From: Mayamaea pseudoterrestris | Lineage: Eukaryota; Bacillariophyta; Bacillariophyceae; Sellaphorales; Sellaphoraceae | Reading direction: 5' to 3' | Assembly (NCBI GenBank): GCA_027923505.1 | Contig: BROI01000001.1 | Span: 652,501-716,500 of the forward strand | DNA: 64,000 bases | Shown here: positions 18,260 to 59,105 of the stretch, one piece after another | How the letters are laid out: every line of letters begins with the position of its first letter | Numbering within the stretch: position 1 is the stretch's first letter | The notes under the pieces: generated by a model | What the model saw: only the letters and a program-made list of their open reading frames with translations | Told to the model about the DNA's origin: nothing | Database searches by the model: none | Made by a program: the position numbers and the translations under genes

Positions 18260-18960
18260 TGGCTGTCGTTCAAAACCGGAGCGACGTAAACTATCTTGGC
18301 ACTGCATATGGCATGATTTTTGAATGTCCATACCTTGAGCCATGTGTATGCCCAAATCAAACCAGAATGGTGCTAACATTCTTTTTTCAGGTGCGCTACA
18401 AGATGGATTGCCTGGCTGGTCCCTTGGTAGACTGCAATGTAATTGGTGACAAGTTGTTACCAATCTCAGCCAGCAGATGCAGTGATTTTAGAATGCCCAT
18501 ACCTTGAGCCATGCGTATGTCCAATTCAAGCCAGAATGGTGCTAACATCCTAATTTCAGGTGCGCTACAAGATGGATTGCCTGGCTGGTCCCTTGGTAGA
18601 CTGCAATGTGATTGGTGACAACTTGTCACCAATCTCAGCCAGCAGATGCCGTCATTTTTAAACGCCCCCACCTTGTGCCATGTGTATGTCCAAATCAAGC
18701 CAGAATTGTGCTAACATCCATATATCAGGTGCGCTACAAGATGCATTGCCTGGCTGGTCCCTTGGTAGACTGCAATGTGATTGGTGACAACTTGCTCTCA
18801 TTTCTCACCCCATGCCGTTTCCAATCAAGCACCGGTGCCATTCATATCATAAAAATCAGCCTGCTGGCTTTGGTGATTGGTGACAACTTGTCCCAATCTC
18901 AGCCAGCAGATGCCGTCATTTTCAAAAGCCCCTACCTTGTGCCACGTGGCAACATCTGCG
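18260..18960 (+). repeat. Satellite A variant (A'), inverted block
   Basis: About four units of roughly 168-170 bases related to satellite A, in the plus orientation (GCGCTACAAGATGG... rather than its reverse complement). Typical phrases are GGCTGGTCCCTTGGTAGACT and a perfect 25-base palindrome at 18610-18634 made of the 12-base arm GATTGGTGACAA, one centre base, and its reverse complement. The block switches to the opposite orientation around 18960, where a partial unit is embedded. Confidence 0.85.
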
Positions 18961-18969
18961 GATGGATTG

Positions 18970-21900
18970 ACTGGCTGGCATCTGCTGAGCTGAGACTGGT
19001 GAGAAGATGTCACCAATTACATTGCCATCCCCTGAGACACCAGCCAAGCCTACCATCTTGTAGCGCAGCCTGAATAATGACGTTAGCACCATTCGGGTGT
19101 ATTTTGGGCTCCTACAGGGCTTGCTGTAGGGGTGTTTGAATGTCACGGCATCTGTGGGCTGAGACTGGTGACAAGTTGTCACCAAATACATTGCTATCCC
19201 CTGAGACACCAGCAAAGCCTACCATCTTGTAGCGCTGCCTGAATAATGATGTTGGCACCATTCTGGTGTATTTTGGGCACCTACAGGGCTTGCTGCAGGG
19301 GCGTTTGAATGTCACGGCATCTGCGGGCTGAGACTGGTGACAAGTTGTCACCAAATACATTGCCATCCCCTGAGACACCAGCCAAGCCTACCATCTTGTA
19401 GCGCAGCCTGAATAATGATGTTGGCACCATTCTGGTGTATTTTGGGCACCTACAGGGCTTGCTGTAGGGGCGTTTGAATGTCACGGCATCTGCGGGCTGA
19501 GACTGGTGACAAGTTGTCACCAAATACATTGCCATCCCCTGAGACACCAGCCAAGCCTACCATCTTGTAGTGCAGCCTGAATAATGACGTTGGCACTATT
19601 CTGGTGTATTTTGGGCACCTACAGGGCTTGCTGTAATGGCGTTTGAATGTCACGGCATCTGCGGGCTGAGACTGGTGACAAGTTGTCACCAAATACATTG
19701 CCATCCCCTGAGACACCAGCCAAGCCTACCATCTTGTAGCGCAGCCTGAATAATGACGTTAGCACCATTCAGGTGTATTTTGGGCTCCTACAGGGCTTGC
19801 TGTAGGGGTGTTTGAATGTCACGGCATCTGCGGGCTGAGACTGGTGACAAGTTGTCACCAAATACATTGCCATCCCCTGAGACACCAGCCAAGCCTACCA
19901 TCTTGTAACGCTGCCTGAATAATAAGGTTGGCACCATTCTGGTGTATTTTGGGCACCTACAGGGCTTGCTGTAGGGGGGTTTGAATGGCACGGCATCTGC
20001 GGGCTGAGACTGGTGACAAGTTGTCACCAAATACATTGCCATCCCCTGAGACACCAGCCAAGCCTACCATCTTGTAGCGCAGCCTGAATAATGATGTTGG
20101 CACCACTCTGGTGTATTTTGGGCACCTACAGGGCTTGCTGTAGGGGCGTTTGAATGTCACGGCATCTGCGGGCTGAGACTGGTGACAAGTTGTCACCAAA
20201 TACATTGCCATCCCCTGAGACACCAGCCAAGCCTGCGATCTTGTAGCGCAGCCTGGATAATGAGGTTGGCACCATTCTGGTGTATTTTGGGCACCTACAG
20301 GGCTTGCTGCAGGGGCGTTTGAATGTCACGGCATCTGCGGGCTGAGACTGGTGACAAGTTGTCACCCATCCCCTGAGACACCAGCCAAGCCTACCATCTT
20401 GTAGCGCCGCCTGAATAATGAAGTTGGCACCATTCTGGTGTATTTTGGGCACCTACAGGGCTTGCTGTAGGGGCGTTTTGTGACAAGTTGTCACCAAATA
20501 CATTGCCATCCCCTGAGACACCAACCAAGCCTACCATCTTGTAGCGCAGCCTGAATAATGATGTTGGCACCATTCTGGTGTATTTTGGGCACCTACAGGG
20601 CTTGCTGTAGGGGCGTTTGAATGTCACGGCATCTGCGGGCTGAGACTGGTGACAAGTTGTCACCAAATACATTGCCATCCCCTGAGACACCAGCCAAGCC
20701 TACCATCTTGTAGCGCAGCCTGAATAATGAGGTTGGCACCATTCTGGTGTATTTCGGGCACCTACAGGGCTTGCTGTTGGGGCGTTTGAATGTCACGGCA
20801 TCTGCCGGCTGAGACTGGTGACAAGTTGTCACCAAATACATTGCCATCCCCTGAGACACCAGCCAAGCCTACCATCTTGTAGCGCTGCCTGAATAATGAG
20901 GTTGGCACCATTCTGGTGTATTTTGGGCACCTACAGGGCTTGCTGTAGGGGCGTTTGAATGTCACGGCATCTGCGGGCTGAGACTGGTGACAAGTTGTCA
21001 CCAAATACATTGCCATCCCCTGAGACACCAGCCAAGCCTACGATCTTGTAGCGCAGCCTGAATAATGAGGTTGGCACCATTCTGGTGTATTTTGGGCACC
21101 TACAGGGCTTGCTGTAGGGGCGTTTGAATGTCACGGCATCTGCGGGCTGAGACTGGTGACAAGTTGTCACCAAATACATTGCCATCCCCTGAGACACCAG
21201 CCAAGCCTACCATCTTGTAGCGCAGCCTGAATAATGATGTTGGCACCATTCTGGTGTATTTTGGGCACCTACAGGGCTTGCTGTAGGGGCGTTTGAATGT
21301 CACGGCATCTGCGGGCTGAGACTGGTGACAAGTTGTCACCAAATACATTGCCATCCCCTGAGACACCAGCCAAGCCTACCATCTTGTAGCGCAGCCTGAA
21401 TAATGAGGTTGGCACCATTCTGGTGTATTTTGGGCACCTACAGGGCTTGCTGTAGGGGCGTTTGAATGTCACGGCATCTGCGGGCTGAGACTGGTGACAA
21501 GTTGTCACCAAATACATTGCCATCCCCTGAGACACCAGCCAAGCCTACCATCTTGTAGCGCAGCCTGAATAATGAGGTTGGCACCATTCTGGTGTATTTT
21601 GGGCACCTACAGGGCTTGCTGTAGGGGCGTTTGAATGTCACGGCATCTGCGGGCTGAGACTGGTGACAAGTTGTCACCAAATACATTGCCATCCCCTGAG
21701 ACACCAGCCAAGCCTACCATCTTGTAGCGCAGCCTGAATAATGAGGTTGGCACCATTCTGGTGTATTTTGGGCACCTACAGGGCTTGCTGTAGGGGCGTT
21801 TGAATGTCACGGCATCTGCGGGCTGAGACTGGTGACAAGTTGTCACCAAATACATTGCCATCCCCTGAGACACCAGCCAAGCCTACCATCTTGTAGCGCA

Positions 21901-24450
21901 GCCTGAATAATGAGGTTGGCACCATTCTGGTGTATTTTGGGCACCTACAGGGCTTGCTGTAGGGGCGTTTGAATGTCACGGCATCTGCGGGCTGAGACTG
22001 GTGACAAGTTGTCACCAAATACATTGCCATCCCCTGAGACACCAGCCAAGCCTACCATCTTGTAGCGCAGCCTGAATAATGATGTTGGCACCATTCTGGT
22101 GTATTTTGGGCACCTACAGGGCTTGCTGTAGGGGCGTTTGAATGTCACGGCATCTGCGGGCTGAGACTGGTGACAAGTTGTCACCAAATACATTGCCATC
22201 CCCTGAGACACCAGCCAAGCCTACCATCTTGTAGCGCAGCCTGAATAATGATGTTGGCACCATTCTGGTGTATTTTGGGCACCTACAGGGCTTGCTGTAG
22301 GGGCGTTTGAATGTCACGGCATCTGCGGGCTGAGACTGGTGACAAGTTGTCACCAAATACATTGCCATCCCCTGAGACACCAGCCAAGCCTACCATCTTG
22401 TAGCGCAGCCTGAATAATGATGTTGGCACCATTCTGGTGTATTTTGGGCACCTACAGGGCTTGCTGTAGGGGCGTTTGAATGTCACGGCATCTGCGGGCT
22501 GAGACTGGTGACAAGTTGTCACCAAATACATTGCCATCCCCTGAGACACCAGCCAAGCCTACCATCTTGTATCGCAGCCTAAATAATGATGTTGGCACCA
22601 TTCTGGTGTATTTTGGGCACCTACAGGGCTTGCTGTAGGGGCGTTTGAATGTCACGGCATCTGCGGGCTGAGACTGGTGACAAGTTGTCACCAAATACAT
22701 TGCCATCCCCTGAGACACCAGCCAAGCCTACCATCTTGTAGCGCTGCCTGAATAATGAGGTTGGCACCATTCTGGTGTGGTGTATTTTGGGCACCTACAG
22801 GGCTTGCTGTAGGGGCGTTTGAATGTCACGGCATCTGCGGGCTGAGACTGGTGACAAGTTGTCACCAAATACATTGCCATCCCCTGAGACACCAGCCAAG
22901 CCTACCATCTTGTAGCGCAGCCTGAATAATGACGTTGGCACCATTCTGGTGTATTTTGGGCACCTACAGGGCTTGCTGTGGTGAATGGCACGGCATCTGC
23001 GGGCTGAGACTGGTGACAAGTTGTCACCAAATACATTGCCATCCCCTGAGACACCAGCCAAGCCTACCATCTTGTAGCGCAGCCTGAATAATGAGGTTGG
23101 CACCATTCTGGTGTATTTTGGGCACCTACAGGGCTTGCTGTAGGGGCGTTTGAATGTCACGGCATCTGCGGGCTGAGACTGGTGACAAGTTGTCACCAAA
23201 TACATTGCCATCCCCTGAGACACCAGCCAAGCCTACCATCTTGTAGCGCAGCCTGAATAATGAGGTTGGCACCATTCTGGTGTATTTTGGGCACCTACAG
23301 GGCTTGCTGTAGGGGCATTTGAATGTCACGGCATCTGCAGGCTGAGACTGGTGACAAGTTGTCACCAAATACATTGCCATCCTAGACACCACCAAGCACC
23401 TGAGTCCTGACACCAGCCAATCTCCACCAACCTCTGTAGCTCAGCCTGAATAATGATGTTGGCACTATTCTGGTGTATTTTGGGCACCTACAGGGCTTGC
23501 TGTAGGGGCGTTTGAATGTCACGGCATCTGCGGGCTGAGACTGGTGACAAGTTGTCACCAAATACATTGCCATCCCCTGAGACACCAGCCAAGCCTACTA
23601 TCTTGTAGCGCAGCCTGAAGAATGAGGTTGGCACCATTTGGGTGTATTTTGGGCACCTACAGGGCTTGCTGTGGGGGCGTTTGAATGTCACGGCATCTGC
23701 AGGCTGAGACTGGTGACAAGTTGTCACCAAATACATTACCATCCCCTGAGACACCAGCCAAGCCTACTATCTTGTAGCGCAGCCTGAAGAATGAGGTTGG
23801 CACCATTCTGGTGTATTTTGGGCACCTACAGGGCGTGCTGTAGGGGCGTTTGAATGTCACAGCATCTGCGGGCTGAGACTGGTGACAAGTTGTCACCAAA
23901 TACATTGCCATCCCCTGAGACACCAGCCAAGCCTACCATCTTGTAGCGCAGCCTGAATAATGATGTTGGCACCATTCTGGTGTGTTTTGGGCACCTACAG
24001 GGCTTGCTGTGGGGGCATTTTCATGTCCCGGCATCTGCGGGCTGAGACTGGTGACAAGTTGTCACCAAATACATTGCCATCCCCTGAGACACCAGCCAAG
24101 CCTACCATCTTGTAGCGCAGCCTGAATAATGATGTTGGCACCATTCTGGTGTATTTTGGGCACCTACAGGGCTTGCTGTAGGGGCGTTTGAATGTCACGG
24201 CATCTGCGGGCTGAGACTGGTGACAAGTTGTCACCAAATACATTGCCGTCCCCTGAGACACCAGCCAAGCCTACCATCTTGTAGCGCAGCCTGAATAATG
24301 AGGTTGGCACGATTCTGGTGTATTTTGGGCACCTACAGATCGCTCTGAAGTTGTCACCAAATACATTGCCATCCCCTGAGACACCAGCCAAGCCTACCAT
24401 CTTGTAGCGCAGCCTGAATAATGAGGTTGGCACCATTCTGGGTATTTTGG
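18970..24450 (-). repeat. Satellite A, 169-base tandem array (about 32 units)
   Basis: Nearly identical units repeat at exactly 169 bases for long runs (for example 20890-22740). Each unit carries a 17-base palindrome (GGTGACAA-G-TTGTCACC), a second dyad with 7-base arms CCTACAG/CTGTAGG around a 6-base loop, and a short CACCA/TGGTG hairpin. A few units are shortened or partly duplicated (near 20370, 20480, 22780, 22975, 23390 and 24345). Open frames of 88 codons recur on the minus strand, but they arise because 169 is one more than a multiple of three, so the same DNA is read in two frames in successive units. I see no evidence of real coding. Confidence 0.97.
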
Positions 24451-24479
24451 GCACGCGGCCTGCAGCCGAGGACTTTTTG

Positions 24480-24850
24480 GCACCCTGTAGGGGCGTTTGA
24501 ATGTCACGGCATCTGCTGGCTGAGATTGGTGACAAGTTGTTACCAATCACATTGCCGTCTACCAAAGGCCCAGCCAGGCAACCCATCTTGTAGCGCACCT
24601 GAAATAAGGATGTTAGCACCACTCTGGTTTGATTTGGGCATACACATGACTCAAGGTATGGGCATTTGAAAATGACGGCATCTGCGGGCTGAGATTGGTG
24701 ACAAGTTGTCACCAATCACATTGCAGTCTACCAAGGGACCAGCCAGGCAATCCAACTTGTAGCGCACCTGGAATAAAGATGTTAGCACCATTCTAACTTG
24801 ATTTGGGCATACACATGGCTCAAGGTATAGACAATAGGAAATTACGGCAT
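24480..24850 (-). repeat. Satellite A variant (A') at right edge of array
   Basis: Two units of the A' type (phrases AGTCTACCAAGGGACCAGCC and GTAGCGCACCTG), in the same orientation as the main array and opposite to the A' block at 18260-18960. They keep the GGTGACAA/TTGTCACC palindrome. So the homogeneous 169-base core is bordered on both sides by the diverged variant, as in arrays that are renewed from the middle. Confidence 0.85.
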
Positions 24851-24967
24851 GAGCTCGATCTTGTCAACATATTGCATGACCCCGTCTGCTAACCTTTCAA
24901 AGTTTTACATTAGTAATTCATACCAAACAATTTACAAGTAGCTATAGCTTTGTTTAATGATTGATAA

Positions 24968-26146
24968 CTAGAAAATACCAAGACCAGTCGTGACAGCAAA
25001 GACAATGAACAAGCTACCTCCAATGAACCCCAACGCTCGCTCCGAAACATACTTTGCCAAGACGGCGCCACCCGACACGGCGATACCAGTCGCTAATGCA
25101 TGCGCGGCAATGGCTCCTCCAGCCACAGCCACGGGGTTTTGCGCGGCGCTCAACGCAATCGTTGACAGAAAGCTTCGGTCACCAAACTCGGCGGCAAAGA
25201 CGAGCGCGAAAATACTGGCCAATTGTCCCCACGGCGTCACTTGCTTGACACTTTTGGATCCTTCCACTGCTTCCTGCGCATCGGCAAACTCCTCGTCCAT
25301 GGTGGATGCGCCTGGTTCCATCTCAAAGGCTTCCTTAAGCGTTTTGATACCAAAGAACAAAAAGGCCAAGCATGCTGCAACATCATCCAGAGGAAATCCA
25401 TTGGCAAAACCATCAGGAACGGCGTGAAAGATTTGTCCAATTCCCACACACACGAGCGTCATGGCAGCCAGTGCCGCCATGGAACCTAGGAATGAAATGA
25501 GACGCGAAGTCTTGGCGCTCAATAGACCGGCAATGAAGAATGTCTTGTCTCCAATTTCCGATAAAAATACAAGAGAAAATGCTTGATAGAAACCAGTTTC
25601 ACTCAGACTGGATAGCCACACGGGAGTGGCAGCAACGCCAGGCAAGCTGATAGCGTTGGCGGCTGGTGCAATGAGGGATGATGCGGCGGTGGATAGAATG
25701 ACTGCCATGGCCATGGACAATGTTTTGCTTGCCATGCTGGTAGAAGAGCGAGTCGATACCGCAGCTGATGCAGATGATTCCATCAGTCGACATTCCGATT
25801 CTTCGGGCCTGCTCATTGTAAGCCGTGGCTGTTGCAGCCGCGACATGAGTGACGGTGCAGCTAAATGAGTTGATGAAACGGCGTTGATTGATGATGCACG
25901 AGATGTATGCAAAGGTTGCATTGAGCTTGAATATGAGAAAAGTGTGGGTTAGATGAATCTTCAGACATTTCTTCTCTCACTTAATCAAGATTGCCATTTC
26001 AAGGAACTATATCGGATCATGATCATGCAGAAAGGCCGATCGGTAGCGCAGAAAATGATGAGAATGACTTACCTAAACCCTCGTGCTGTCGATACAAGCA
26101 GCAAGCCTGCTAATATGCGAGTCATTCTGATAGCAAAAGATTTCAT
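24968..26146 (-). CDS. GDT1/TMEM165 (UPF0016) family cation transporter, plastid-targeted, two exons
   Basis: Predicted 343-residue protein from exon 1 (26146-26073) and exon 2 (25925-24968) with a 147-base intron (GTAAGT donor, TTCAAG acceptor). Splicing adds a signal peptide, MKSFAIRMTRILAGLL..., ending in STARGF-SS, close to the diatom ASAFAP-type plastid motif in which F follows the cleavage site. A second hydrophobic stretch ending AANA may be a thylakoid-transfer region. Two hallmark motifs of the family are present: SEIGDKTF (E148, D151) and AEFGDRSF (E271, D274), each opening a three-helix half. Family members (PAM71, CMT1, GDT1) move Mn2+ or Ca2+ in exchange for H+. Likely role: manganese or calcium supply to the plastid. 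An in-frame upstream ATG at 26260 would bury the signal peptide and is less likely. The gene sits alone between satellite arrays A and B. Confidence 0.92.
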
Positions 26147-26484
26147 TCTGCTGTACTTGGTCGCTTCCGATGAGGCCGTCAAAGGTGCAAATGGATCATG
26201 GTCGAATTGACGACGGCGTTTGGAATTGCGACGATGGGCGCAAACGTGCGCAAACGTCATGTTGAGTCACGAGCGGACAACGATTCAATCGTACGTCTTC
26301 GTCCGTTTCTAAATTTTGACTGCTCGTGTGACCTAATAAGAGAGAGCACGACCTAACTGTAAATTAGGTAGGCCAAATTCAAGTTGTCACTTTATAGTTT
26401 GTCAAAGATGGCTGTTGAATGAAGTTATTAATTGAGGCAGCCTATGCTATGCATTGGAAGGTCAGATCCTTGCAGTTTGTAGGT
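26147..26484. other. Upstream region of GDT1-like gene
   Basis: No gene is seen. This 340-base stretch separates the first exon of the GDT1-like gene from satellite B and must hold its promoter. I see no clear TATA box or repeat. Confidence 0.5.
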
Positions 26485-29400
26485 TTTTGCCATGGCAGCC
26501 AGACTGGTGGATACTGGGGTGATAGTTGCCCCAGCATTGGATCAAAATGTCATCCGACATCATAGGAAACAGGTTAATTGGCTTAGCAGGCAAGGCTGAT
26601 GATCCTGTAGCCAAAGCATGGTGCACTGCTAGCACATTCAACAATGTGTTGAATGTGCGGAGTCTCATGGCACAATGCTGCGTTCCACACCACAATTGAC
26701 ATGACTAATGGTCAAATTGTATCATATGTATTTTAGTTACAATATTCTCGGGTCTGCAGGCCCTTCTGGCAGTCTGTGTACCAGGTGAGGTGCACCAATG
26801 GCGGATCCAACAAGTTATTGGATCTGCCGAGTCTCACCATGGCAGCCAGGCTGGTGGATATTGGGGTGATATTCACCCCAGCATTGGATCAAAATGTCAA
26901 CCAACATCATAGGAAACAGGTTAATTGGCTTAGCAGGCAAGGCTGATGACCCTGTAGCCAAAGCATGGTGCACTGCTAGCACATTCAACAACTTGTTGAA
27001 TGTGCGGAGTCTCATGGCACAATGCTGCGGTACACACCACAATTGACATGACTATTGGTCGAATTGTATCATATGTAATTTGGTTTCAATATTCTCGGGT
27101 CTGCAGGCCCTTCTGGCAGTTTGTATACCAGGTGAGGTGCACCACTAGCAGATCCAACAAGTTATTAGATCTGCCGAGTCTCACCATGGCAGCCAGGCTG
27201 GTGGATATTGGGGTGATAGTTACCACGGCATTGGATCAAAATGTCAATTATCATCATAGGAAACAGGCTGGATGGCTTAGCAGGCAAGTCTGATGACCCT
27301 GTAGCCAAAGCATGGTGCACTACTAGCACATTCAACAACTTGTTGAATGTGCGGAGTCTATGGCACAATGCTGCGTTCCACACCACAATTGACATGACTA
27401 TTGGTCGCATTGTTTTTTTATGTATTTTGGTTTCAATATTCTCGTGTCTGCAGGCCCTTCTGGCAGTCTGTGTACCACTTGAGGTGCACCGCTAGCAGAT
27501 CCAACAAGTTATTAGATCTGCCGAGTCTCACCAAGGCAGCCAGGCTGGTGGATATTGGGGTGATAGTTACCCCAGCATTGGATCAAAATGTCAATTAACA
27601 TCATAGGAAACAGGCTGGATGGCTTAGCAGGCAAGTCTGATGACCCTGTAGCCAAAGCATGGTGCACTACTAGCACATTCAACAACTTGTTGAATGTGCG
27701 GAGTCTCATGGCACAATGCTGCGTTCCACACCACAATTGACATGACTATTGGTCGCATTGTTTTTTATGTATTTTAGTTTCAATATTCTCGTGTCTGCAG
27801 GCCCTTCTGGCAGTCTGTGTACCAGTTGAGGTGCACCGCTGGCAGATCCAACAAGTTATAGGATCTGCCAAATCTCACCACGGCAGCCAGGCTGGTTGAT
27901 ACTGAGTTGATAGTCGCCACAGCATTGGATCAAATGTCAACCAACATCATAGGAAACAGGTTAATTGGCTTAGCAGGCAAGGCAGATGATCCTGTAGCCA
28001 AAGCATGGAGCACTACTAGCACATTCAACAACTTGTTGAATGTGCGGAGTCTCATGGCACAATGCTGCGTTCCACACCACAATTGACATGACTATTGGTC
28101 GAATTGTTTCATATGTAATTTGGTTTCAATAATCTTGGGTCTGCAGGCCCTTCTGGCAGTCTGTGTACCAGTTGAGGTGCACCGCTGGCAGATCCAACAA
28201 GTTAATGGATCTGCCGAGTCTCACCATGGCAGCCAGGCTGGTGAATACTGGGATGATAGTCACCCCAGCATTGGATCAAAATGTCCACCAACATCATAGG
28301 AAACAGATTAATTGGCTTAGCAGGCAAGGCTGATGATCCTGTAGCCAAAGCATGGTGCACTACTAGCACATTCAACAACTTGTTGAATGTGCGGAGTCTC
28401 ATGGCACAATACTGCGTTCCACACCACAATTGACATGACTATTGGTCGAATTGGGTCTGCAGGCCCTTCTGGCAGTCTGTGTACCAGTTGAGGTGCACCA
28501 CCATCTGATCCAACAAGTTAATGGATCTGCCGAGTCTCACCATGGCAGCCAGGCTGGTGAATACTGGGATGATAGTCACCCCAGCATTGGATCAAAATGT
28601 CCACCAACATCATAGGAAACAGATTAATTGGCTTAGCAGGCAAGGCTGATGATCCTGTAGCCAAAGCATGGTGCACTACTAGCACATTCAACAACTTGTT
28701 GAATGTGCGGAGTCTCATGGCACAATACTGCGTTCCACACCACAATTGATATGACTAATGATCCAATTGTTTCAAATGTATTTTGGTTACAATATTCTCA
28801 GGTCTGCAGGCCCTTCTGGCAGTCTGTGTACCAGTTGAGGTGCACCACCGTCTGATCCAACAAGTTAATGGATCTGCCGAGTCTCACCATGGCAGCCAGG
28901 CTGGTGGATATTGGGATGATAGTCACCCCAGCATTGGATCAAAATGTCCACCAACATCATAGAAAACAGGTTAATTGGCTTAGCAGGCAAGGCTGATGAT
29001 CCTGTAGCCAAAGCATGGAGCACTACTAGCACATTCAACAACTTGTTGAATGTGCGGAGTCTCATGGCACAATGCTGCGTTCCACACCACAATTGACATG
29101 ACTATTGGTCGAATTGTTTCATATGTATTTTGGTTTCAATATTCTCGGGTCTGCAGGCTCTTCTGGCAGTCTGTGTACCAGTTGAGGTGCACCACCGTTT
29201 GATCCAACAAGTTAATGGATCTGCCGAGTCTCACCATGGCAGCCAGGCTGGTGGATACTGGGATGATAGTCACCCCAGCATTGGATCAAAATGTCAACCA
29301 ACATCATAGGAACAGGTTAATTGGCTTAGCAGGCAAGGCAGATGACCCTGTAGCCAAAGCATGGTGCACTGCTAGCACATTCAACAACTTGTTGAATGTG

Positions 29401-30885
29401 CGGAGTCTCATGGCACAATTCCACACCACAATTGACATGACTAATGATCCAATTGTTTCATATGTAATTTGGTTTCAATATTCTTGGGTCTGCAGGCGAT
29501 TCTGGCAGTCTGTGTACCAGTTGAGGTGCACCGCTGGCAGATCCAACAAGTTAATGGATCTGCCGTGTCTCATCATGGCAGCCAGGCTGGTGGATATTGG
29601 GGTGATATTCACCCCAGCATTGGATCAAAATGTCAACCAACATCATAGAAAACAGGTTAATTGGCTAAGCAGGCAAGGCTGATGATCCTGTAGCCAAAGA
29701 ATGGAGCACTACTAGCACATTCAACAACTTGTTGAATGTGCGGAGTCTCATGGCACAATGCTGCGTTACACACCACAATTGACATGACTATTGGTCGAAT
29801 TGTATCATCTGTAATTTGGTTTCAATATTCTTGGGTCTGCAGGCGATTCTGGCAGTCTGTGTACTAGTTGAGGTGCACCGCTGGCAGATCCAACAAGTTA
29901 TTGGATCTGCCAAATCTCACCATGGCAGCCAGGCTGGTGAATACTGGGATGATAGTCACCCCAGCATTGGATCAAAATGTCAATTAACATCATATGAAAC
30001 AGGTTAATTGGCTTAGCAGGCAAGGCTGATGATCCTGTAGCCAAAGCATGGAGCACTACTAGCACATTCAACAACTTGTTGAATGTGCGGAGTCTCATGG
30101 CACAATGCTGCGTCCCACACCACAATTGACATGACTATTGGTCGAATTGTATCCTATGTAATTTGGTTTCAATATTCTTGGGTCTGCAGGCGATTCTGGC
30201 AGTCTGTGTACCAGTTGAGGTGCACCGCTGGCAGATCCAACAAGTTAATGGATCTGCCGAGTCTCACCATGGCAGCCAGGCTGGTGAATACTGGGATGAT
30301 AGTCACCCCAGCATTGGATCAAAATGTCAACCAACATCATAGAAAACAGGTTAATTGGCTTAGCAGGCAAGGCTGATGATCCTGTAGCCAAAGCATGGAG
30401 CATTACTAGCACATTCAACAACTTGTTGAATGTGCGGAGTCTCCTGGCACAATGCTGTGTTCCACACCACAATTGACATGACTATTGGTCAAATTGTTTC
30501 ATATGTAATTTGGTTTCAATATTCTTGGGTCTGCAGGCGATTCTGGCAGTCTGTGTACCAGTTGAGGTGCACCGCTGGCAGATCCAACAAGTTATAGGAT
30601 CTGCCAAATCTCACCATGGCAGCCAGGCTGGTGGATATTGGGATGATAGTCACCCCAGCATTGGATCAAAATGTCAACCAACATCATAGGAAACAGGCTG
30701 GATGGCTTAGCAGGCAAGGCAGATGATCCTGTAGCCAAAGCATGGTGCACTACTAGCACATTCAACAACTTGTTGAATGTGCGGAGTCTCATGGCACAAT
30801 GCTGCGTTTCACACCACAATTGACATGACTATTGGTCCAATTGTTTCGTATGTATTTTGGTTTCAATATTCTTGGGTCTGCAGGC
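26485..30885 (-). repeat. Satellite B, ~347-base tandem array (about 13 units)
   Basis: Units recur at 342-353 bases (one shortened to 316 near 28450). Each contains CACATTCAACAA-C-TTGTTGAATGTG-type palindromes (perfect, 25 bases, for example 28367-28391) and, half a unit away, a weaker dyad with arms GCAGATCC/GGATCTGC. The two dyads sit in two related half-units, so B is a dimeric repeat. Open frames of about 75 codons on the minus strand recur with the unit and show no coding features. The reverse-complement family appears at 56030-59105. Confidence 0.95.
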
Positions 30886-30923
30886 GCTAGGCCAAGAAAC
30901 AGCGGTAGATCACTAGGACTTAT

Positions 30924-31180
30924 GACTGCGTACATCTTATCTAGTCCTGGAATCATCAGTGCCTACATCTGTTATTAATGCAGAATCGCACTCATCAATA
31001 TTCCGGCTATGATGAAGTCCGAAATCGTTAAAGTCAAGGCACATTATGTGTCTGCGTATATCTTATCTAGTCCTGGAATCAGCGGTGCCTACATCTTGTT
31101 AACGATGCAGAATCGCACTCATTTATATTCCGGCTAAGATGAAGTCCGAAATCGTTAAAAATTCAAGGCACATTATGTGT
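30924..31180. repeat. 126-base direct duplication
   Basis: CTGCGTA-ATCTTATCTAGTCCTGGAATCA starts at 30926 and again at 31052; the following text (GCAGAATCGCACTCAT, ATTCCGGCTA, GAAGTCCGAAATCGTTAAA, AAGGCACATTATGTG) repeats in the same order. The copies differ at several bases. It lies just downstream of the FTO-like gene, between its stop and satellite B. Confidence 0.85.
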
Positions 31181-31198
31181 TGCTGTTTTGCTATAAAT

Positions 31199-42467: not shown

Positions 42468-42542
42468 AGCAGCGGCAATATATAGTTGCCAGAGCTACGA
42501 TAGTAAATGAAAATTATTAATGCAACGCTTCTACTTTCAAGT

Positions 42543-47404: not shown

Positions 47405-48855
47405 TCTGTTTGAAAGCAACCATGATGCAGGATGTGCAAGCCATTCAATGGTATACCTACAACTCCTCCAGGAAAATGACCAGGGTTGGGTTAGGCATGG
47501 GTCCAGCTACTCAAATATAAACACACTCAATAGCCATAGCCATGTGCCAGCCAGCTTCAATCTGAGTCTCTGCGGTTGCTAGGCATGCATAAAGGATGCA
47601 GGATATGCAATTAATTCACTGGTATACCTTCAAACCCTCCAGTAAAATGACTGGTTGGGTTCAGCAATGGTTTCAGCTATTTAAATACAAACACACTCAA
47701 TAGCCATAGCCATGAGCCAGCCAGCTTCAATATGAGTCTCTGCAGTTGCAAGGCATGGATTATGGATGTAGGATGAGCAATCTGTTCAATGGTATACCTT
47801 CACACCCTCCAGTAAAATGACTGGGGTTGGGTGGGGTTTGGTGGTTGCTGGCAGGCACATGGGTTTCAGCTATTCAAACACACTCAATAGCCATAGCCAT
47901 GGGCCATCCAGCTTCAATATGAGTCTCTGCGGTTGCTAGGCATGCATAAAGGATGCAGGATGTGCAATTCATTAAATGGTATACCGACAACTCCTCCAGG
48001 AAAATGACCGGGGTTGGGTTTGGCATGGGTCCAGCTACTCAAATATAAACACACTCAATAGCCATAGGCATGTGCCAGCCAGCATCAATCTAAGTCTTTG
48101 CGGTTGCTAGGCGTGCATAAACAATGCAGGACATGCAATCCATTCAAATTTGTACCTACAGACCCTCCAGCAAAATAATCAAGGTTGGTTTCAGCATGGG
48201 TTTTAGCTTCCCAAATACAAACGAACTCAAGATCCACAGCCACGGGCCAGCCCGCTTCAATACAAGTCTCTGCGGTTGCTAGGCATGCATGAAGGATGTA
48301 GGATGTGCAATTTCTTCAACGGTCTATCTTCACACCCTCCAGTAAAATGACTGGGGTTGGGTGGGGTTTGTGGTGGCTGGCATCAACTACTCAAACACAC
48401 TCACAGTCAATAGCAATAGCCATGGGCCAGCCTGCTTCAATATAAGTCTCAGTGGTTGCTAGACATTTTTTAAAGATGCAGGATGTGCAATCTATTCAAT
48501 GGTATACCTACAACCCCTCTAGGAAAATGACCTGGGTTAGTTTCAGCTTGGGTCCAGCTACTCAGATATAAACACACTATATAGCACTAGCCACGGGCCA
48601 GCCAGCTTCAATCAGAGTCTCTGCGGTTGCTAGGCATGCATAAAGGATGTAGGATGTGCAATCCATTCAATGGTATACCTACAAACCCTCCAGTGAAATG
48701 ACTGGGGTTGGGTGGGGTTTGGTGGTGGCTGACAGGCAGCATGGGTTTCAGCTGCTCAAACAAACTCAATAGCCATAGCCATGGGCCAGCCAACTTCAAT
48801 ATGAGTCTCTGCAGTTGCTAGACATGCATAAAGGATGCAGGATGTGCAATCCATG
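47405..48855 (+). repeat. Satellite C, about 8 units of 170-190 bases
   Basis: The phrase CAATAGCCATAGCCATG recurs near 47528, 47698, 47885, 48056, 48228, 48408, 48577 and 48767, with spacings of 170, 187, 171, 172, 180, 169 and 190 bases. Units also share GAGTCTCTGCGGTTGCTAGG, GATGCAGGATGTGCAAT and CCCTCCAG-AAAATGAC. The longer units carry a G-rich insert (GGGGTTGGGTGGGGTTTGG). Units are more diverged than in satellite A. The array joins satellite A directly near 48856. Confidence 0.92.
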
Positions 48856-51220
48856 TTAGGCTTGGCTGGTGTCTCAGGTGATGGCAATGTATTTGGTGAC
48901 AACTTGTCACCAGTCTCAGCCCGCAGATGCCGGGACATTCAAACGCCACTACAGCAGGCCCTGTAGGTGCCCAAAATACACCAGAATGGTGCACCATCAT
49001 TATTCAGGCTGCGCTACAAGATGGTAGGCTAGGCTGGTGTCTCAGGGGATGGCAATGTATTTGGTGACAACTTGTCACCAGTCTCAGCCCGCAGATGCCG
49101 GGACATTCAAACGCCCCTACAGCAAGCCCTGTAGGTGCCCAAAATACACCAGAATGGTGCCAACATCATTATTCAGGCTTCGCTACAAGATGGTAGGCTT
49201 GGCTGGTGTCTCAGGGGATGGCAATGTATTTGGTGACAACTTGTCACCAGTCTCAGCCCGCAGATGCCGGGACATTCAAACGCCACTACAGCAGGCCCTG
49301 TAGGTGCCCAAAATACACCAGAATGGTGCACCATCATTCTTCAGGCTGCGCCACAAGATAGTAGGCTTGGCTGGTGTCTCAGCGGATGGCAATGTATTTG
49401 GTGACAACTTGTCACCAGTCTCAGCCCGCAGATGCCGGGACATTCAAACGCCCCTACAGCAAGCCCTGTAGGTGCCCAAAATACACCAGAATGGTGCCAA
49501 CATCATTATTCAGGCTGCGCTACAAGATGGTAGGCTTGGCTGGTGTCTCAGGGGATGGCAATGTATTTGGTGACAACTTGTCACCAGTCTCAGCCCGCAG
49601 ATGCCGGGACATGCAAACGCCCCTACAGCAGGCCCTGTAGGTGCCCAAAAAACACCAGAAGGGTGCCAACATCATTATTCAGGCTGCCTTACAAGATGGT
49701 AGGTTTGGCTGGTGTCTCAGGGGATGGCAATGTATTTGGTGACAACTTGTCACCAGTCTCAGCCCGCAGATGCCGGGACATGCAAACGCCCCTACAGCAG
49801 GCCCTGTAGGTGCCCAAAATACACCAGAAGGGTGCCAACATCATTATTCAGGCTGCGCTACAAGATGGTAGGCTTGGCTGGTGTCTCAGGGGATGGCAAT
49901 GTATTTGGTGACGACTTGTCACCAGTCTCAGCCCGCAGATGCCGGGACATTCAAACGCCCCTACAGCAAGCCCTGTAGGTGCCCAAAATACACCAGAATG
50001 GTGCCACCATCATTATTCAGGCTGCGCTACAAGATGGTAGGCTTGGCTGGTGTCTCAGGGGATGGCAATCTATTTGGTGACAACTTGTCACCAGTCTCAG
50101 CCCGCAGATGCCAGGACATGCAAATGCCCCTACAGCAGGCCCTGTAGGTGCCCAAAATACAACAGAATGGTGCCATCATCATTTTGCAGGCTATGCTACA
50201 AGATGGTAGGCTTGGCTGGTGTCTCAGGGGATGGCAATGTATTTGGTGACAACTTGTCACCAGTCTCAGCCCGCAGATGCCGTGACATGCAAACGCCCCT
50301 ACAGCAGGCCCTGTAGGTGCCCAAAATACACCAGAAGGGTGCCAACATCATTATTCAGGCTGCTTTACAAGATGGTAGGCTAGGCTGGTGTCTCAGGGGA
50401 TGGCAATGTATTTGGTGTCAACTTGTCACCAGTCTCAGCCCGCAGATGCCGGGACAATCAAACGCTCCTACAGCAAGCCCTGTAGGTGCCCAAAGTACAC
50501 CAGAATGGTGCCAACATCATTATTCAGGCTGCGCTACAAGATGGTAGGCTAGGCTGGTGTCTCAGGGGATGGCAATGTATTTGGTGACAACTTGTCACCA
50601 GTCTCAGCCCGCAGATGCCGGGACATGCAAACGCCCCTATAGCAGGCCCTGTAGGTGCCCAAAATACACCAGAATGGTGTCAACATCATTCTTCAGGCTG
50701 CGCTACAAGATGGTAGGCTTGGCTGGTGTCTCAGGGGATGGCAATGTATTTGGTGACAACTTGTCACCAGTCTCAGCCCGCAGATGCCGGGACATGCAAA
50801 CGCCCCTACAGCAGGCCCTGTAGGTGCCCAAAATACACCAAAATGGTGCCAACATCATTATTCAGGCTGCGCTACAAGACGGTAGGCTAGGCTGGTGTCT
50901 CAGGGGATGGCAATGTATTTAGTGACAACTTGTCACGAGTCTCAGCCCGCAGATGCCGGGACATGCAAACGCCCCTATAGCAGGCCCTGTAGGTGCCCAA
51001 AATACACCAGAATGGTGTCAGCATCATTCTTCAGGATGCGCTACAAGATGGTAGGCTTGGCTGGTGTCTCAGGGGATGGCAATGTATTTGGTGACAACTT
51101 GTCACCAGTCTCAGCCCGCAGATGCCGGGACATTCAAACGCTCCTACAGCAAGCCCTGTAGGTGCCCAAAGTACACCAGAATGGTGCCAACATCATTATT
51201 CAGGCTGCGCTACAAGATGG
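48856..51220 (+). repeat. Satellite A, second array, opposite orientation (about 14 units)
   Basis: The same 169-base unit as at 18970-24450 but reverse-complemented (GGCTTGGCTGGTGTCTCAGG, GGTGACAACTTGTCACC palindrome, CCTACAGCAAGCCCTGTAGG dyad). Units vary more than in the first array: CAAGCCC versus CAGGCCC in the second dyad, and ATTCAAACGC versus ATGCAAACGC. The array stops abruptly at the LTR of the copia element at 51221. Confidence 0.96.
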
Positions 51221-51549
51221 TGACACGATAATATCAGACGAACCTTTATTCCAGCGACTACAATGGACTCGGAGCGATCAACCTCTTCGTCCAGCGTAAA
51301 GCAAACAAACAAACTCAATTGCTAGAATAGTGCATGTTACTCGCTACTCTACTCGTGCGCCTCTTTCTCATTCTCACTGGGTTCACGGTCGAGGTTCACG
51401 CCTCGATCGTCAGCGATTTCACTCATGTATGTGAGGATTCGGTCACAAGTGTGACTCAACCCTGCACAGGATTAAATGCATACAAAACACAGGTAGCTAA
51501 CCGTCTTGTCATAAGACGCAGGTCAACTCAACTCAATAATATTGTGTCA
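51221..51549 (-). repeat. 3' LTR of copia copy 2
   Basis: 329 bases, TGACAC...GTGTCA at the ends, adjacent on its right to the reverse complement of the polypurine tract (TCCCCCTTGAT). Confidence 0.93.
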
Positions 51550-54500
51550 TCCCCCTTGATCTAGGCTTGTGACAACGATCGGTTTGCCGTATCACCCTTC
51601 CAGAAAAGAATCGGAATGATCAGGGGTCGGAACGTGGCATGCGGCAAGAACTTGGTAAGAACGTCGGCGACGTTCTGCTTGCCGAAGATGTGCTCAAAGT
51701 ACAGAACATTGCTTGCAATGGCCTCGCAAACTCGGTGGTAGGCGAGCGCATTGTGTCTATCCTTGACGACTTCGCTTTTCCAACATCCAGGCTGGTCCAC
51801 TCAAAGGAACTCCCAACATGCGTAGGGAGTATCCGGAAACCATAATCTGTTCCGGTCGGTCTTGGTTGCAGGATCAACAGTATTCTGACGCTTGCAGAAC
51901 CATTCGACAGGCGTCTGGTTCAGGAAATGCAAGACTCCCCATTGCGGAACGTCCAGTAGTGTAATCATGATACAGGTTCGCGTCCACAAAGGTGGTTAGT
52001 TGCACGGGCTTGCCCTCGGGACCGGCAACAATGTAGACCTTTTCCTTGGTCTTGCCCGGGTGAGACGCACGACATCGCCGCCCAAAACTTGAGGACTTCG
52101 TTCAGTTCAGCAACGTGCTTGGTTGGATCGTGCCAGCACGGAAAGAAGGGTCGTTGTGGCGAGCAGTCTCAAATTTCGCGCGAATTCTGCCTACGAGATC
52201 GTTCTTCAAAACCAAGATGCGCGTTGATGTTCATTCATGAGGCCCAATGCTTGTCCGTACTCGTGTAGCTGCTCCATCCAGTCTTGATGGCGTCGCCCAC
52301 CCACAGGGTGTTTCCATTAGAAGATAACAACTTGAACCAAACTTGAGCCAACGCGCTTCTTGGACACGGTTCTTCTTGTGCGCCTTGCACATGCGGTTAA
52401 ACAGTTTAGTGTGTCCTGCCATGCGCCTCAAGCGCTTCCATCCATCCTTTTCAGCATTACCCTTGCGCTTGCCATACTCGAGCGGGCAACGGTCACAGGG
52501 TCGGACTTGATAATCAATGCGAGTGGCTCCCAGGTCTTTCTCGCCATTTGCCCCGTGTATGAGCGAAGTTGGGATGAGCCGCGTGCGAGAGGGGCGTCGG
52601 CTTGTGTCAGTGGACCCTCATGTCCGTCAATGAAATCAAACTTGTAGTACTGGTCGTCGTTGTCATCGTCCCCCAGTTAAAGAATCTTGCCGCTCGCACA
52701 GGTCGGCTAGTTCGTTGTAGGTAATCAGCTCGTCGACGTCGCGTCGGCAGGCTCAATTGGAACTTGATGATCTTGTGGTTGGCTTCATCGCGATCGTTTA
52801 GTTGCTCGATAACCTTGTGTCGCGTGGAGCCGTCTTCCTCGTCAGAAGGACAGTGCGTCCCATCAGTTCAGCCGGGTAAAAGACGGCATGGGTCCGTCGG
52901 GATCCAACGCTTTCGGCGAAGCAGCTTTCGCGAATTGAAGCGTCTTCATCCACGGTTCCCCCAGAATCAGGCCGACAACCATTCCAGTTCGATCGGATCG
53001 AACTTGGTACGTGAGGATGTCACCCTTGTTCTCTGCAATGCCGACCCCAGCGTCCTGCTGCTTCCTTAGTGTGAGGAAATGTCGGGCTCTCGGCTCCCAG
53101 CTTCGTCAGGACTCGTTCCCAGAACTTGAACTGCAGGAACGGCGAAATGTGGTACTCGGTTGAAGGCGGCTCAGTAGGGGTCTTCCAGTTGAGGGACTCG
53201 GTCGCCAGATTGTTGAATAAGGCGATTACGTACACGCGCATAGGAGCCAGGCTGCAGCGGGTGCGCCCGCACGGTTCATGATGTTCTGGACTGATGACTT
53301 GACTTCTTGGATGCGACGCTCGGCAGGGTTCTGGTTCTGGTATCCGGGCTCGCTCTGTTGGTCACGAATCGCGTAGAATCGCAACAAGGTTTCAACTTGC
53401 TTCCCGAGCTGCACTCGCGAGTTATCGCTAATGAGCAAATCGGGAGCGCCAATGTCTCGAATGAAGTCTTCGAGCGCCATGGGCATGTCACTCTCGGTTC
53501 TCAGTGGGTATCCCCTCGTCAGCAGACTCTTCTTGCCGACGAACAGTTGCATCATCTTGCATCCGCCATGGCCGCGGATTCCGTCGTTAAAGGCGGCTTC
53601 CTTGGAAAACCAGGTATCTGTCGCCGTATCGTCATGGAAACGAACCACATTGGCGGCAGGGAATCGCGACTTAAAGTGTTGGCGAAATGGGGTGTGTGCC
53701 GATGCACGGAAAAGCTGTGTCGTATTCTTAATGGTGCGCTTGACTCGTTCAAGTGGCGTGTAGCCAAGGTAGGGTCGAAGCGCTTGGTAGTCAGGTTCTT
53801 GTGGCATTATGCGTCGTGCATTGGCTTGGCGCGTCGTATCAGCCTGATTGCGATCGACATACTGCACCACACGTTCCACTGAGTTCATGTTGTTCCGGTA
53901 GGTGGCGTCGCCGAAGTCATCCATGCGGGCGTCGACGAAACCGTGGGCTTCTTCCAATTCGTCGAAGCGACGATTAAACTCAAGTTCTTCTTCGTTCCAT
54001 TCATTATCCAACTCCGCCGGATCCCAAAGGGTGTCCGCAGAGAAAATGACCGTCGGATACATTTCCAACTCTGCGTCCGTCGGTGGACGCATATCCATAC
54101 GAGGCAAGCCGTCACGGATCGCCAAGGGGATGGTCTTGCCACAACTGGTGACAATGGCTTGTGCTCCATTCTGGGAGCGAGCGACGTCGTCGATCAGATG
54201 GCCGAACGAACGAAGCTGCGATGGAGCATGAATGGATTCAGCACCGTCGTACAAAGCATACTGGTTGAACTGACCGATAATGGGTCCAGTCCGAGTCTCA
54301 ATCAATGCGACGCCAGTTCCGACTTGGAGGTCGCGAACCGTGTGGTCGCTCAAACCTGTCACGTTACACGTGTGGTTGGTAGTACTCAAGATTCTCATAT
54401 CGCTTCCAGCGAGTCCACCGTTCGCACCGCCGTCAATCAGCGATCCTTGGCGAGTCTCGTTGCTGCGAGCTCGATTCACAGTGTAGCGCACCGATACCAT

Positions 54501-55700
54501 TGCGCGGTATTGACGGCCGTCGCTTCCCATAAACTCTTGCTGGGTGTTATTCGCAGCTTGAGTGCGAGACGACGCGGCGTTCGCAAGGAAAGATCTAATC
54601 ATGTCATCCGGTGCACCTTGAGTGGCTGTCGTTGGTGCTTTTGAGACAGCATCATTCTGATACAAGATTGTACCAGGCACTGAGGCAGCTGCTTGTGACT
54701 GCTGGTTATTCGCGCGGTTTCCATTGTTCGCGCGTCTTGTTGTGGCGACATCAAGGCGCCATGAGCTGAGCTGTCTATTGTCGTTTGTACCGACATGATG
54801 GCGGCCAACAACTGTTCAAAGTTCAGATAATAGGCAACCCCCAGATTATGATCCGGGCCTGTGGGGCGCGGAAGGCCTGCGTCCTCGACCGTGGCCGGCA
54901 GGTGCCCGTCCTGTCTCGTCCGGTGCCGCGCGTCCGCCTTGGCGCCCGCGTCCTCCGCCCCGGAACCGCGTTTCCTCGGTGTGTTAGCGTTTTCACTTGG
55001 CCCGGTCGAGCGTTTTCTTGCCCTTGTTCAACAGCGTTCTTGTTGTCAATCGCAAAGCCTGCTGCGACAACATGTCGAAAGACCGTCATAATCTTCAGTC
55101 ACGGCGGCATCTGGGTCACCCTCACTGATGTGCATCGTCATCAAATGTCAAGTGCTAGTCAAATGTCGTGCACGTGGGTGCTTCTCGTCAAGCCCCTTCT
55201 GCAGCTGAGGGCCAGTAGTACTTCTTCTTTCATCCGTGCTCCCAGGACGGAACTCTTAGTTCTTCATGAGCTGTTCGATGTAATTTAAAAGGAACTTGTA
55301 GTGTCCTTTTGTCCAAGTCGAATCTGGCGAATCATCCTGGCTGGGCTTCAAGTTGCTCCTTGGTCAATCTCAACATCTGGGTAGTGGTGGTTACATTCCA
55401 AAACAAGAACGCTTCTTGGATGTCTTGTCCGAAAACGTTCACGCAGAGCGCTTGCAAAGCCTCCACAGTAACCGAAACCATGATAATGAATACCTCACTT
55501 TCCGCAAGTCCTTTCTCACACAACAACCGCTCTCAATGCAGTCGAGCCTTATACGATCCTGTTCTACGCGCTCGCGTCAAGTATTCGGATTGACGACGCC
55601 GCAAGGAATCTGCTCTTTCTCTCTCAATTTCTCGATTCTTTCACTCTCTCTCTTTCGCACAGCTCTCTCAGGTCAAGACAAGCTAGCAAGACTGTTAATC

Positions 55701-56029: not shown

Positions 56030-59000
56030 CTCCCTTTGTGGCTGCAGGGATCATCAGCATTGCCTGCTGAACCCTCCAATATATTTCAAATAGGTTGGTT
56101 GTCATGATGGGCCATATGGTGGTAGTTGCACCTCAGTATTCATCACCGTGTATGCCATGGTGAGACTGAACTGACCCTACAACTTGTTGGATCTGCCAGC
56201 GGTGCACCTCAAGTGGCAAGTGAGACTTCCAAAATGGCCTCCAGACCCCATATTACACAAACATGGACTGTAATAGTGAATGGGGCTCATATACTTGTCC
56301 AATTGGGTGTGGAAGCCATTACTATGCCCTGAGACTCTGCACATTCAACAACTGGTTGAATGTGCCAGCCATGCTCCCTTTGTGGCTGCAGGGATCATGA
56401 GCATTGCCTGCTGAGCCCTCCAATATCTTTCATATCATGTTTGTTGTCATGATGGGCCATAAGTTGGTCAGTTGCACCTCAGTATCCTTCACCGTGTATG
56501 CCATGGTGTGACTGAGCAAATCCAACAATTTGTTGGGTCTGCCAGATCTGCCAGCAGTGCACCTCAAGTGGCAAGTGAGACTTTAAAATGTCCTCCAAAC
56601 CCCATAATCCAACTAACATGGACTTTACCAGTAAATGGGACTCAAAGACTTGTCCATTGGGGTGTGCAAGCCATCACTATGCCCTGAGACTCAGCACATT
56701 CAACAACTGGTTGAATGTGCCAGCCCTGCTCCCTTTTTGGCTGCAAGGATCATTAGCACTGCCTGATGATCCCTCCAGTATATTTCAAATTGGTTTGTTG
56801 TCATGATGGGCCAATAAGTTGGTCAGTTGCACCTCAGTATCCTTCACCATGTATGCCACGGTGAGACTGAGCAGATCTAACAACTTGTTGGATCTGCTAG
56901 AGCTGCCAGCAGTGCACCTCAAGTGGCAAGTGAGACTTCCAAAATGGCCTCCAGACCCCATATTACACAAACATGGACTGTAACAGTGAATGGGACTCAT
57001 AGACTTGTCCTGTTGGGGTGGAAGCCATCACTATGCCCTGACACTCCGCACATTCAACAACTGGTTGAATGTGCCAGCCCTGCTCCCTTTGTGGCTGCAG
57101 GGATCATCAGCAGTGCCTGCTGAATCCTCCAATATATTTCAAATAGGTTTGTTGTCATGATGGGCCATATGTTGGTCAATTGCAGCTCAATATCCATAAC
57201 CGTGTATGCCATGGTGAGACTCAGCCGATCCTACAACTTGTTGGATTTGCCAGCAGTGCCCCTCAAGTGGCAAGTGAGACTTCCAAAATGGCCTGCAGAC
57301 CCCATAATACAACTAACATGGACTTTATTAGCGAATGGGACTCAAAGACTTGTCCATTGGGGTGTGGAAGCCATCACTATGCCCTGAGACTCCACACATT
57401 CAACAACTGGTTGAATGTGCCAGCCCTGCTCCCTTTGTGGCTGCAGGGAGCATCCGCATTGCCTGCTGAGCCCTCCAATATATTGCAAATAGGCATGTTG
57501 TCATGATGGGCCATATGTTGGTCAGTTGCATCTCAGTAACCATCACAATGTATGCCATGGTGAGACTCCGCCAACCCTACAACTTGTTGGATCTGCTAGT
57601 GGTGCACCTCAAGTGGCAAGCAAGACTTCTAAAATGGCATGCAAACCCCATAATACAACAAACATGGACTTGAACAGTGAATGGGACTCATAGACTTCTC
57701 CATTGAGGTGTAGAAGCTATTACTATGCCCTGAGACTCCACACATTCAAAAACTGGTTGAATGTGCCAGCCCTGCTCCCTTTTTGGTTGCAGGGATCACC
57801 AGCATTGCCTGCTGAGCCCTCCAATATCTTTCATATCACATTTGTTGTCATGATGGGCCAATAAGTTGGTCAGTTGCACCTCAGTATCCATCACCATGGT
57901 ACGCCACTGTGAGACTTAGCAAATCCAACAACATGTTGGATCTGCCAGAGCTGCCAGCAGTGCACCTAAAGTGGCAAGTGAGACTTCCAAAATGGTCTCC
58001 AGACCCCATAATACAACTAACATGGACTTTACCAGTAAATGTGACTCAAAGAATTGTCCATTGGGGTGTGGAAGCCATCAATATGCCCTGAGACTCCGCA
58101 CATTCAACAACTGGTTGAATGTGCCAGCCCTGCTTCCTTTGTGGCTGCAGGGATCATCAGCATTGCCTGCTGAGCCCTCCAGTATATTGCAAATAGGTTT
58201 GTTGTCATGATGGGCCATAGTTGGTCAGTTGCACCTGAGTATCCATCACCATGTATGCCATGGTGAGACTGAGCCGATTCTACAACTTGTTGGATCTGCC
58301 AGCGGTGCACCTCAAGTGGCAAGTGAGACTTCCAAAATGGCCTGCAGTCCCCATAATACAACTAACATGGACTGTAACAGTGAATGGGGCTCATAGACTT
58401 GTCCAATTGGGTGTGGAAGCCATCACTATGCCCTGAGACTCCGCACATTCAACAACTGGTTGAATGTGCCAGCCATGCTCCCTTTGTGGCTGCAGGGATC
58501 ATCAGCATTGCCTGCTGAGCCCTCCAATATCTTTCATATCATGTTTGTTGTCATGATAAGCCATAAGAAATCAGTTGCACCTCGGTATCCTTCACTGTGT
58601 ACGCCACGGTGAGACTGAGCAGATCCAACAACTTGTTGGATCTGCCAGCGGTGCACTTCAAGTGGCAAGTGAAACTTCCAAAATGGCCTGCAGACCCCAT
58701 AATACAACAAATATGGACTGTAACAGTGAATGGGACTCATAGACTTGTCCATTGGGGTGTGGAAGCCATAACTTTGCCCTGAGACTCAGCACATTCAACA
58801 ACTGGTTGAATGTGCCAGCCATGCTTCCTTTGTGGCTGCAGGTATCATCAGCATTGCCTGCTGAGCCCTCCAATATCTTTCATATCATGTTTGTTGTCAT
58901 GATGGGCCATAAGTTGGTCAGTTGCACCTCAGTATCCATCATCTTGAAAGCCATGGTGAGATTGAGCCGACCCTACAACTTGTTGGATCTGCCAGCAGTG

Positions 59001-59105
59001 CACCTCAAGTGGCAAATGAGACTTCCAAAATGGTCTCCAGACCCCATAATCCAACTAACATGAACTTTACCAGTAAATGGGACTCATGGACTTGTTATTT
59101 TGGGT
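56030..59105 (+). repeat. Satellite B, second array, opposite orientation (about 9 units of ~346 bases)
   Basis: Homologous to 26485-30885 in reverse complement: GAGACTCCGCACATTCAACAA, GGATCATCAGCATTGCCTGCTGAG and GTGTGGAAGCCATCACTATG match the other array. Each unit is a dimer: ATTCAACAACTGGTTGAAT and ATCCAACAACTTGTTGGAT lie 176 and 170 bases apart in alternation (58447, 58623, 58793). The second forms a perfect 27-base palindrome at 58619-58645 (13-base arm GCAGATCCAACAA, one centre base). The array begins right at the copia LTR and ends at a junction with satellite D. Confidence 0.94.

Follow-up and report, generated by a model that had tools for sequence, protein, structure and literature searches.

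Satellite DNA is usually regarded as fast-evolving and free of sequence constraint. The human CENP-B box is 17 bp long, with a TTCG and a CGGG part, and is not a long dyad; human arrays are megabase-size and occupy one main region per chromosome. The closest precedent for the satellites described here comes from the root-knot nematodes (Meloidogyne), in which a 17-bp satellite motif resembles the CENP-B box (PMC3694981), while a different box, of 19 bp, marks tandem repeats that have been reported to be CenH3-associated (PMC9673304). There, divergent satellites of one genome, with units of about 80 or 180 bp and located in several chromosome regions, have in common a short box of protein-binding size that is less variable than the rest. 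Human alpha satellite offers another parallel in its n-box/CENP-B-box dimers, whose halves hold two different boxes at the corresponding place (PMC8997354). Excerpts of the same paper, citing Kasinathan and Henikoff 2018, describe dyads in centromeric satellite monomers that are able to form hairpins; these are presented there as short (<10 bp), not as a sequence common to unrelated satellites. Among diatoms, the centromeres of Phaeodactylum tricornutum are described as short, non-repetitive and AT-rich (Diner et al. 2017 as cited in PMC9266582 and PMC7082073), and the accessible text of a raphid diatom genome paper (PMC8329260) contains neither 'satellite' nor 'centromer'.

The satellites of the diatom Mayamaea pseudoterrestris resemble these systems in part. 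As in Meloidogyne, the same motif lies in otherwise unrelated satellites, here called A and B, and it varies less than the remaining monomer sequence, except for one of the two B boxes (P2) within arrays. In contrast to the nematode motifs, the diatom box forms a 17-29 bp dyad in which the arms vary from one satellite to the other and the symmetry is largely retained. The two B boxes, P1 and P2, recall the paired boxes of alpha satellite, whereas the diatom arrays are kilobase-size and lie at many places. They differ from the short centromeric dyads in that both letters and symmetry are conserved, and from the AT-rich centromeres of P. tricornutum, also a diatom, in a GC content of 46-53%. A conserved box common to unrelated satellites and alternating boxes in dimers are thus already known, from Meloidogyne and human alpha satellite respectively; the new part is a long dyad, with arms differing between satellites, in a diatom. 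At the level of titles and the starts of abstracts, no report of a shared dyad box in diatom satellites was found in the open literature.

The genome comprises 30,627,229 bases in 41 contigs, and the window, the whole stretch of 64,000 bases that was analysed, lies on contig C1 (C1:652501-716500). Ordinary genes surround its satellite arrays: a GDT1 antiporter, FTO, an aldo/keto reductase, a Prismane family member, an M3 peptidase and an alpha/beta hydrolase. The protein at 35006-36109 has 307 matches, of which 120 were listed; every named one among these 120 comes from a diatom (Fistulifera, Entomoneis, Seminavis, Cylindrotheca, Amphora and others), with identities of 66-67% at the top, which points to a genome of raphid-pennate-diatom type. 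Pieces recognised by eye as Copia-like retrotransposons flank the satellite region (661-5365, 10602-13737 and 53226-54815), and the one open frame of these that was scanned gave a weak RVT_2 match, below the curated cut-off. An RNA element was rejected, the window having no Rfam match at the gathering threshold. Tandem Repeats Finder (TRF) called the satellites A (169 bp), A', B (347 bp), D (171/352 bp) and C (352 bp), and a scan of the window for perfect palindromes with arms of at least 7 bases found lengths of 17-19 bp in A, 25 bp in A' and 27 bp in B. The longest perfect palindromes outside the box-bearing satellites are three of 19 bp with other sequences (centres 5259, 51667 and 52995). 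The 9-base core ACAACTTGT is present in 68 copies in the window against 0.88 expected from dinucleotide shuffles; since these copies stand in tandem, they count as two satellite families and not as 68 separate events.

The box of satellite A is GGTGACAASTTGTCACC, an exact 17-mer that occurs 7,671 times in the whole genome; if each occurrence represents one 169-bp unit, A makes up about 1.3 Mb or 4.2% of the assembly. The main array of the window (18977-24820, plus strand) carries a perfect dyad of 17-19 bp in most units, preceded by GGCTGAGACT, and the A dyad pairs only as far as position 9. A second array (48853-51221, minus strand) has 14.0 copies and 12 ACAACTTGT centres. The first-pass annotation had placed the palindrome in every 169-base unit, which holds for most: the 17-mer is identical to that of the array consensus in 93.7% of the 158 A monomers sampled. 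The variant A', about 73-81% identical to A depending on the stretch, extends the dyad. It lies at 18314-18935 (minus strand), where the palindrome scan recovered the expected perfect 25-bp palindrome at 18610-18634, and again at the right end of the A array (24487-24850, plus strand), where a second 25-bp palindrome has its centre at 24705. The A array (18314-24850) has A' units of opposite orientation at its two ends, an inverted arrangement that recalls the macro-dyads described in Tribolium (PMC13081366). The five lowest-GC 100-bp segments listed for the window (28%) adjoin this array, around 24884-24990; low GC marks the putative centromeres of P. tricornutum (PMC9266582).

Satellite B is a 347-bp dimer with a different dyad in each half, a structure read from 12 further B stretches and from the loci of a whole-genome B search. 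The two boxes, P1 (GCACATTCAAC-NNNNN-GTTGAATGTGC) and P2 (GCAGATCCAACAASTTGTTGGATCTGC, 29 bp long in several arrays), are spaced 169-185 bp apart. B has at least 363 matches in the genome; about 150 listed ones lie on 15 contigs, and among those listed, diverged full-length matches are 71-73% identical. The P1 pattern occurs 568 times genome-wide. Array 1 of the window (26490-30886, minus strand) holds 12 copies of the perfect 27-bp P1 palindrome, GCACATTCAACAACTTGTTGAATGTGC, with centres from 26992 to 30769, and its TRF consensus has a perfect P1 and a P2 with 1-2 broken pairs. One of these P1 copies had been described as a 25-base palindrome at 28367-28391; it is real and extends to 27 bp (28366-28392). 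Array 2 (56030-59112, plus strand) belongs to a diverged subfamily, about 73-75% identical to array 1, and its consensus has one broken pair in each box. The perfect 27-bp palindrome anticipated at 58619-58645 is present and is a perfect P2, and in view of the imperfect consensus boxes it is exceptional within array 2. The proposed density of about one palindrome per ~170-base monomer agrees with the spacing of one per 169-185 bp in A and B, with exceptions, as the B consensus is often imperfect.

Array 1 also forms part of a duplication. A 93%-identical host-gene block occurs both in the window (24874-31630) and on contig C29 (C29:203296-206591), with 2.8 B units in the C29 copy against 12.7 in the window. 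The idea that the array sits inside a mobile element with identical flanks on C1 and C29 was rejected on these grounds. The block holds GDT1 and part of FTO, and the homology starts 24 bases beyond the A array; consisting of host genes, it represents a segmental duplication and not a transposon.

Outside the box, A and B show no detectable relationship, in agreement with the first-pass annotation. Flank alignments of A or A' against the B halves score z −0.5 to 1.4 relative to shuffles (−1.1 and 1.7 in reverse orientation), compared with 18.9 for A against A' and 5.3 for one B half against the other, which are clearly related; a comparison of the window arrays likewise gave no significant match between A and B. 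ACAACTTGT is the sole 9-mer present in at least three of the five satellite families (A, B and a family E that was found via this core), with a mean of 0.03 in 200 shuffles. The proposal of one common centre for all boxes is borne out to the extent that A and B both contain ACAACTTGT, and fails for arrays read on C13, C1 (2.37 Mb), C7 and C4, where the P1 centre is CCAWTGG. A further element, TGAGACT, lies beside the box in A and in both B halves; its distance from the centre is 8 bases in A and 15 bases in each B half. Viral relatives were set aside: P1 has no match in IMG/VR, and the A 17-mer occurs there in 24 stretches, taken as chance or phage operators. Two IMG/VR contigs (L085 and L091) carry the 17-mer twice, 39 bases apart, and might hold a phage operator pair.

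The letters of the arms vary between boxes in a symmetric manner. Between A', two perfect P1 forms and P2, the base pair differs at 8 of the 12 dyad positions, and every position is complementary in all four boxes. Among 15 B arrays the consensus dyad is perfect in 9 for P1, in 7 for P2 and in 12 for either. Breaks in the P1 consensus always fall at position 2, as an A-G between the A-T and C-G forms, while those in P2 fall mostly at positions 3-5. If the boxes are homologous, these differences would represent compensatory change, at position 2 by way of a tolerated mismatch; if they are not, a long dyad would have arisen more than once around one core. For the most part, symmetry survives the differences in arm letters from one type of box to another, as would be the case at a site for a symmetric dimer.

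Whether the palindrome is more conserved than the rest of its unit had been set beforehand as a test, and the answer depends on the box. Constraint is clear in A, in the arms of P1 inside B arrays and, when B arrays are compared with one another, in both boxes; it is weak for P2 copies inside arrays. The A sample comprised 158 monomers from five arrays, collected by alignment of the whole unit and not by the box. Pooled substitutions amount to 15 in 3002 cells of the box (0.005) against 624 in 23600 cells of the rest (0.026), and the box has the lower rate in all five arrays (0.0034/0.0276, 0.0162/0.0293, 0.0033/0.0362, 0.0053/0.0247 and 0.0000/0.0215 for box/rest). The ten 19-bp segments that score below the box all overlap it and jointly form one block with it, GGCTGAGACT plus the palindrome. 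Measured by intact copies, the figure of 93.7% for the 17-mer compares with a median of 73.4% (range 35.7-89.9%) for non-overlapping segments.

The comparison of B covered the consensus sequences of 15 of the 16 arrays, that of contig C18 being dropped because its TRF consensus was out of phase; the 15 are not independent trials, as they have a common ancestry and the C29 array is a duplicate of array 1 of the window. Mean pairwise identity between arrays is 0.946 in the two palindromes and 0.772 outside them, and among 348 circular 27-bp segments P2 ranks 1, P1 ranks 3 and the two jointly rank 1. The 22 arm bases of P1 are invariant over the 15 arrays, whereas its central base takes all four letters. 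Within arrays, substitutions over the full 27 bp number 83/3394 for P1, 132/3402 for P2 and 1674/36634 for the rest; with arms only, they are 49/2764 (0.018) for P1, 0.039 for P2 and 1427/31604 (0.045) for the rest. The P1 arms fall below the rest in 14 of 15 arrays, the exception being C1b, and core and arms together lie above the rest in 3 of 15. The P1 cores are variable in C1b, C7 and C4 (0.13-0.22).

Satellites C and D of the window and family E do not carry the dyad. Satellites D (47424-48854, plus strand) and C (59113-64000, plus strand) served as negative controls, and their consensus sequences have no palindrome at the scan threshold (arms of at least 7). The first-pass annotation had held that satellites lacking the palindrome entirely would speak against it; C and D of the window lack it, and A and B carry it. 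No spacer separates the box-less from the box-bearing satellites: D adjoins A at 48853/48854, and C begins exactly at the end of B (59112/59113). Satellite C is very homogeneous (92-100% over the matches listed, 247 matches in all) and dispersed over contigs C1, C7, C10, C18, C19, C23, C30, C31, C33 and C38, near contig ends on C18 and C38. The search for the 9-base core in other tandem repeats of the genome, suggested at the outset, did yield a third family, though one with no dyad. Searching by pattern for the core between different arms gave 48 places, which led to family E (181 bp, on 11 contigs). Because E was found by searching for the core itself, its 9-bp core is given by the search; its arms pair at only 3 of 9 further positions, which makes E a core with no dyad.

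Arrays of these families are scattered over the assembly. The places of A, B and E form at least 54 clusters (100-kb gap) on at least 26 of 41 contigs, at least 13 of which have two or more; contig 1 alone has at least 6, between 0.61 and 2.71 Mb, and 15 contigs have no such place among the matches listed. TTAGGG repeats occur at one contig end (C11) and at one internal place in C30, a contig at least 236 kb long; contigs therefore cannot stand for whole chromosomes. The dispersal argues against a regional centromere satellite with one main array region per chromosome. Judged from the matches listed, it would fit a repeat-based holocentromere of many short arrays along every chromosome, and it leaves room for a role in heterochromatin, nucleosome phasing or a polycentric system.

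Taken from the sequence, the A/B box stands a somewhat better than even chance of being the site of a dimeric DNA-binding protein, kept by purifying selection. The nucleosome-length units of A and B would then present a dyad-symmetric recognition site for a homodimeric, sequence-specific protein about once per 169-185 bp, and its putative purpose would be the chromatin organisation of dispersed arrays, through heterochromatin or nucleosome phasing and possibly in relation to the kinetochore. Most of the surrounding repeat evolves faster than the box, which suggests that the box is read by a paired protein. The invariant arms and variable centre of P1 fit a dimer that would make little contact at the dyad axis, and the asymmetric TGAGACT block suggests an added or accessory contact. 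The dimeric protein proposed in the first-pass annotation is partly supported: it draws on the conservation and symmetry of the box, and it has against it the box-less C and D, the bare core of E, the imperfect dyads and the weak constraint on P2. Its more specific suggestion of a CENP-B-like factor is opposed by the dispersal insofar as such a factor would serve a single regional centromere on each chromosome; the dispersal does not speak against a role that is itself dispersed or polycentric. The A, P1 and P2 boxes contain no CG dinucleotide and hence neither TTCG nor CGGG, and the families PF03184 and PF03221 (DDE_1 and HTH_Tnp_Tc5) have no match in this genome and likewise none in 14 control genomes.

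The main rival holds that the dyad is kept for DNA structure, a hairpin or cruciform of 25-29 bp, or by symmetry-making replication template switching, and not for a protein. Folding does give strong hairpins for the three boxes tested (−10.2 to −13.6 kcal/mol, z −5.8 to −8.5), dyad symmetries are reported to be common at centromeres with no CENP-B boxes (PMC8997354), and template switching would also yield symmetric letter differences between box types. Structure alone would, however, permit compensated changes, yet the P1 arms of the 15 arrays are invariant in their letters and not in symmetry alone, and the conserved block of A runs into the non-symmetric GGCTGAGACT. Standing imperfect consensus dyads, which neither version predicts, occur for P1 in 6 of 15 arrays and for P2 in 8 of 15. 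We consider this explanation unlikely.

Common descent alone would make A, B and E old relatives diverged beyond recognition and the box a slow-evolving remnant with no function. The status of ACAACTTGT as the only 9-mer common to at least three of the five families points this way, with the reservation that E was found via this core, as do a weak 35-bp local match of E to B around the core (71%, E-value 0.059) and the clear paralogy of the B halves. Descent by itself would neither lower the substitution rate in the box nor keep symmetry while letters change, and the rate difference in A largely opposes it; we consider it distinctly unlikely. Still more doubtful is the idea that a recombinase or transposase-like enzyme acts at the box and so spreads or rearranges the arrays, as proposed for the CENP-B-box-like motif found where nematode satellites join. 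The spread over at least 26 contigs would suit such an enzyme, and two Meloidogyne monomer transitions lie exactly at the box (PMC3694981). Array edges in the diatom have no constant phase, and of the 16 that lie within the loci read none falls inside a box (11 of B, two of them C29 repeats of window edges, and 5 of A/A'); with boxes covering about 1/6 of the B unit and 1/9 of the A unit, 1-2 would be expected by chance, so this last point weighs little.

These satellites have a wider interest. One genome contains two satellites with no detectable relationship, of which one is a superfamily of diverged arrays, and in both the same kind of dyad persists as the remaining sequence is replaced; this amounts to a natural experiment in what satellites must keep. 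The matching differences in both arms provide a sharp, testable signature of dimer recognition, and the boxes could be used as bait for the binding protein in diatoms, a group whose centromeres, in the portions of the literature available, are described in few species. There is a slim chance that a dimeric chromosome protein binds the dyad box sequence-specifically and makes numerous short, unrelated arrays into centromere or chromosome-scaffold units along the chromosomes. If true, this would be a polycentric or holocentric diatom system quite unlike the short, AT-rich, non-repetitive centromeres of Phaeodactylum.
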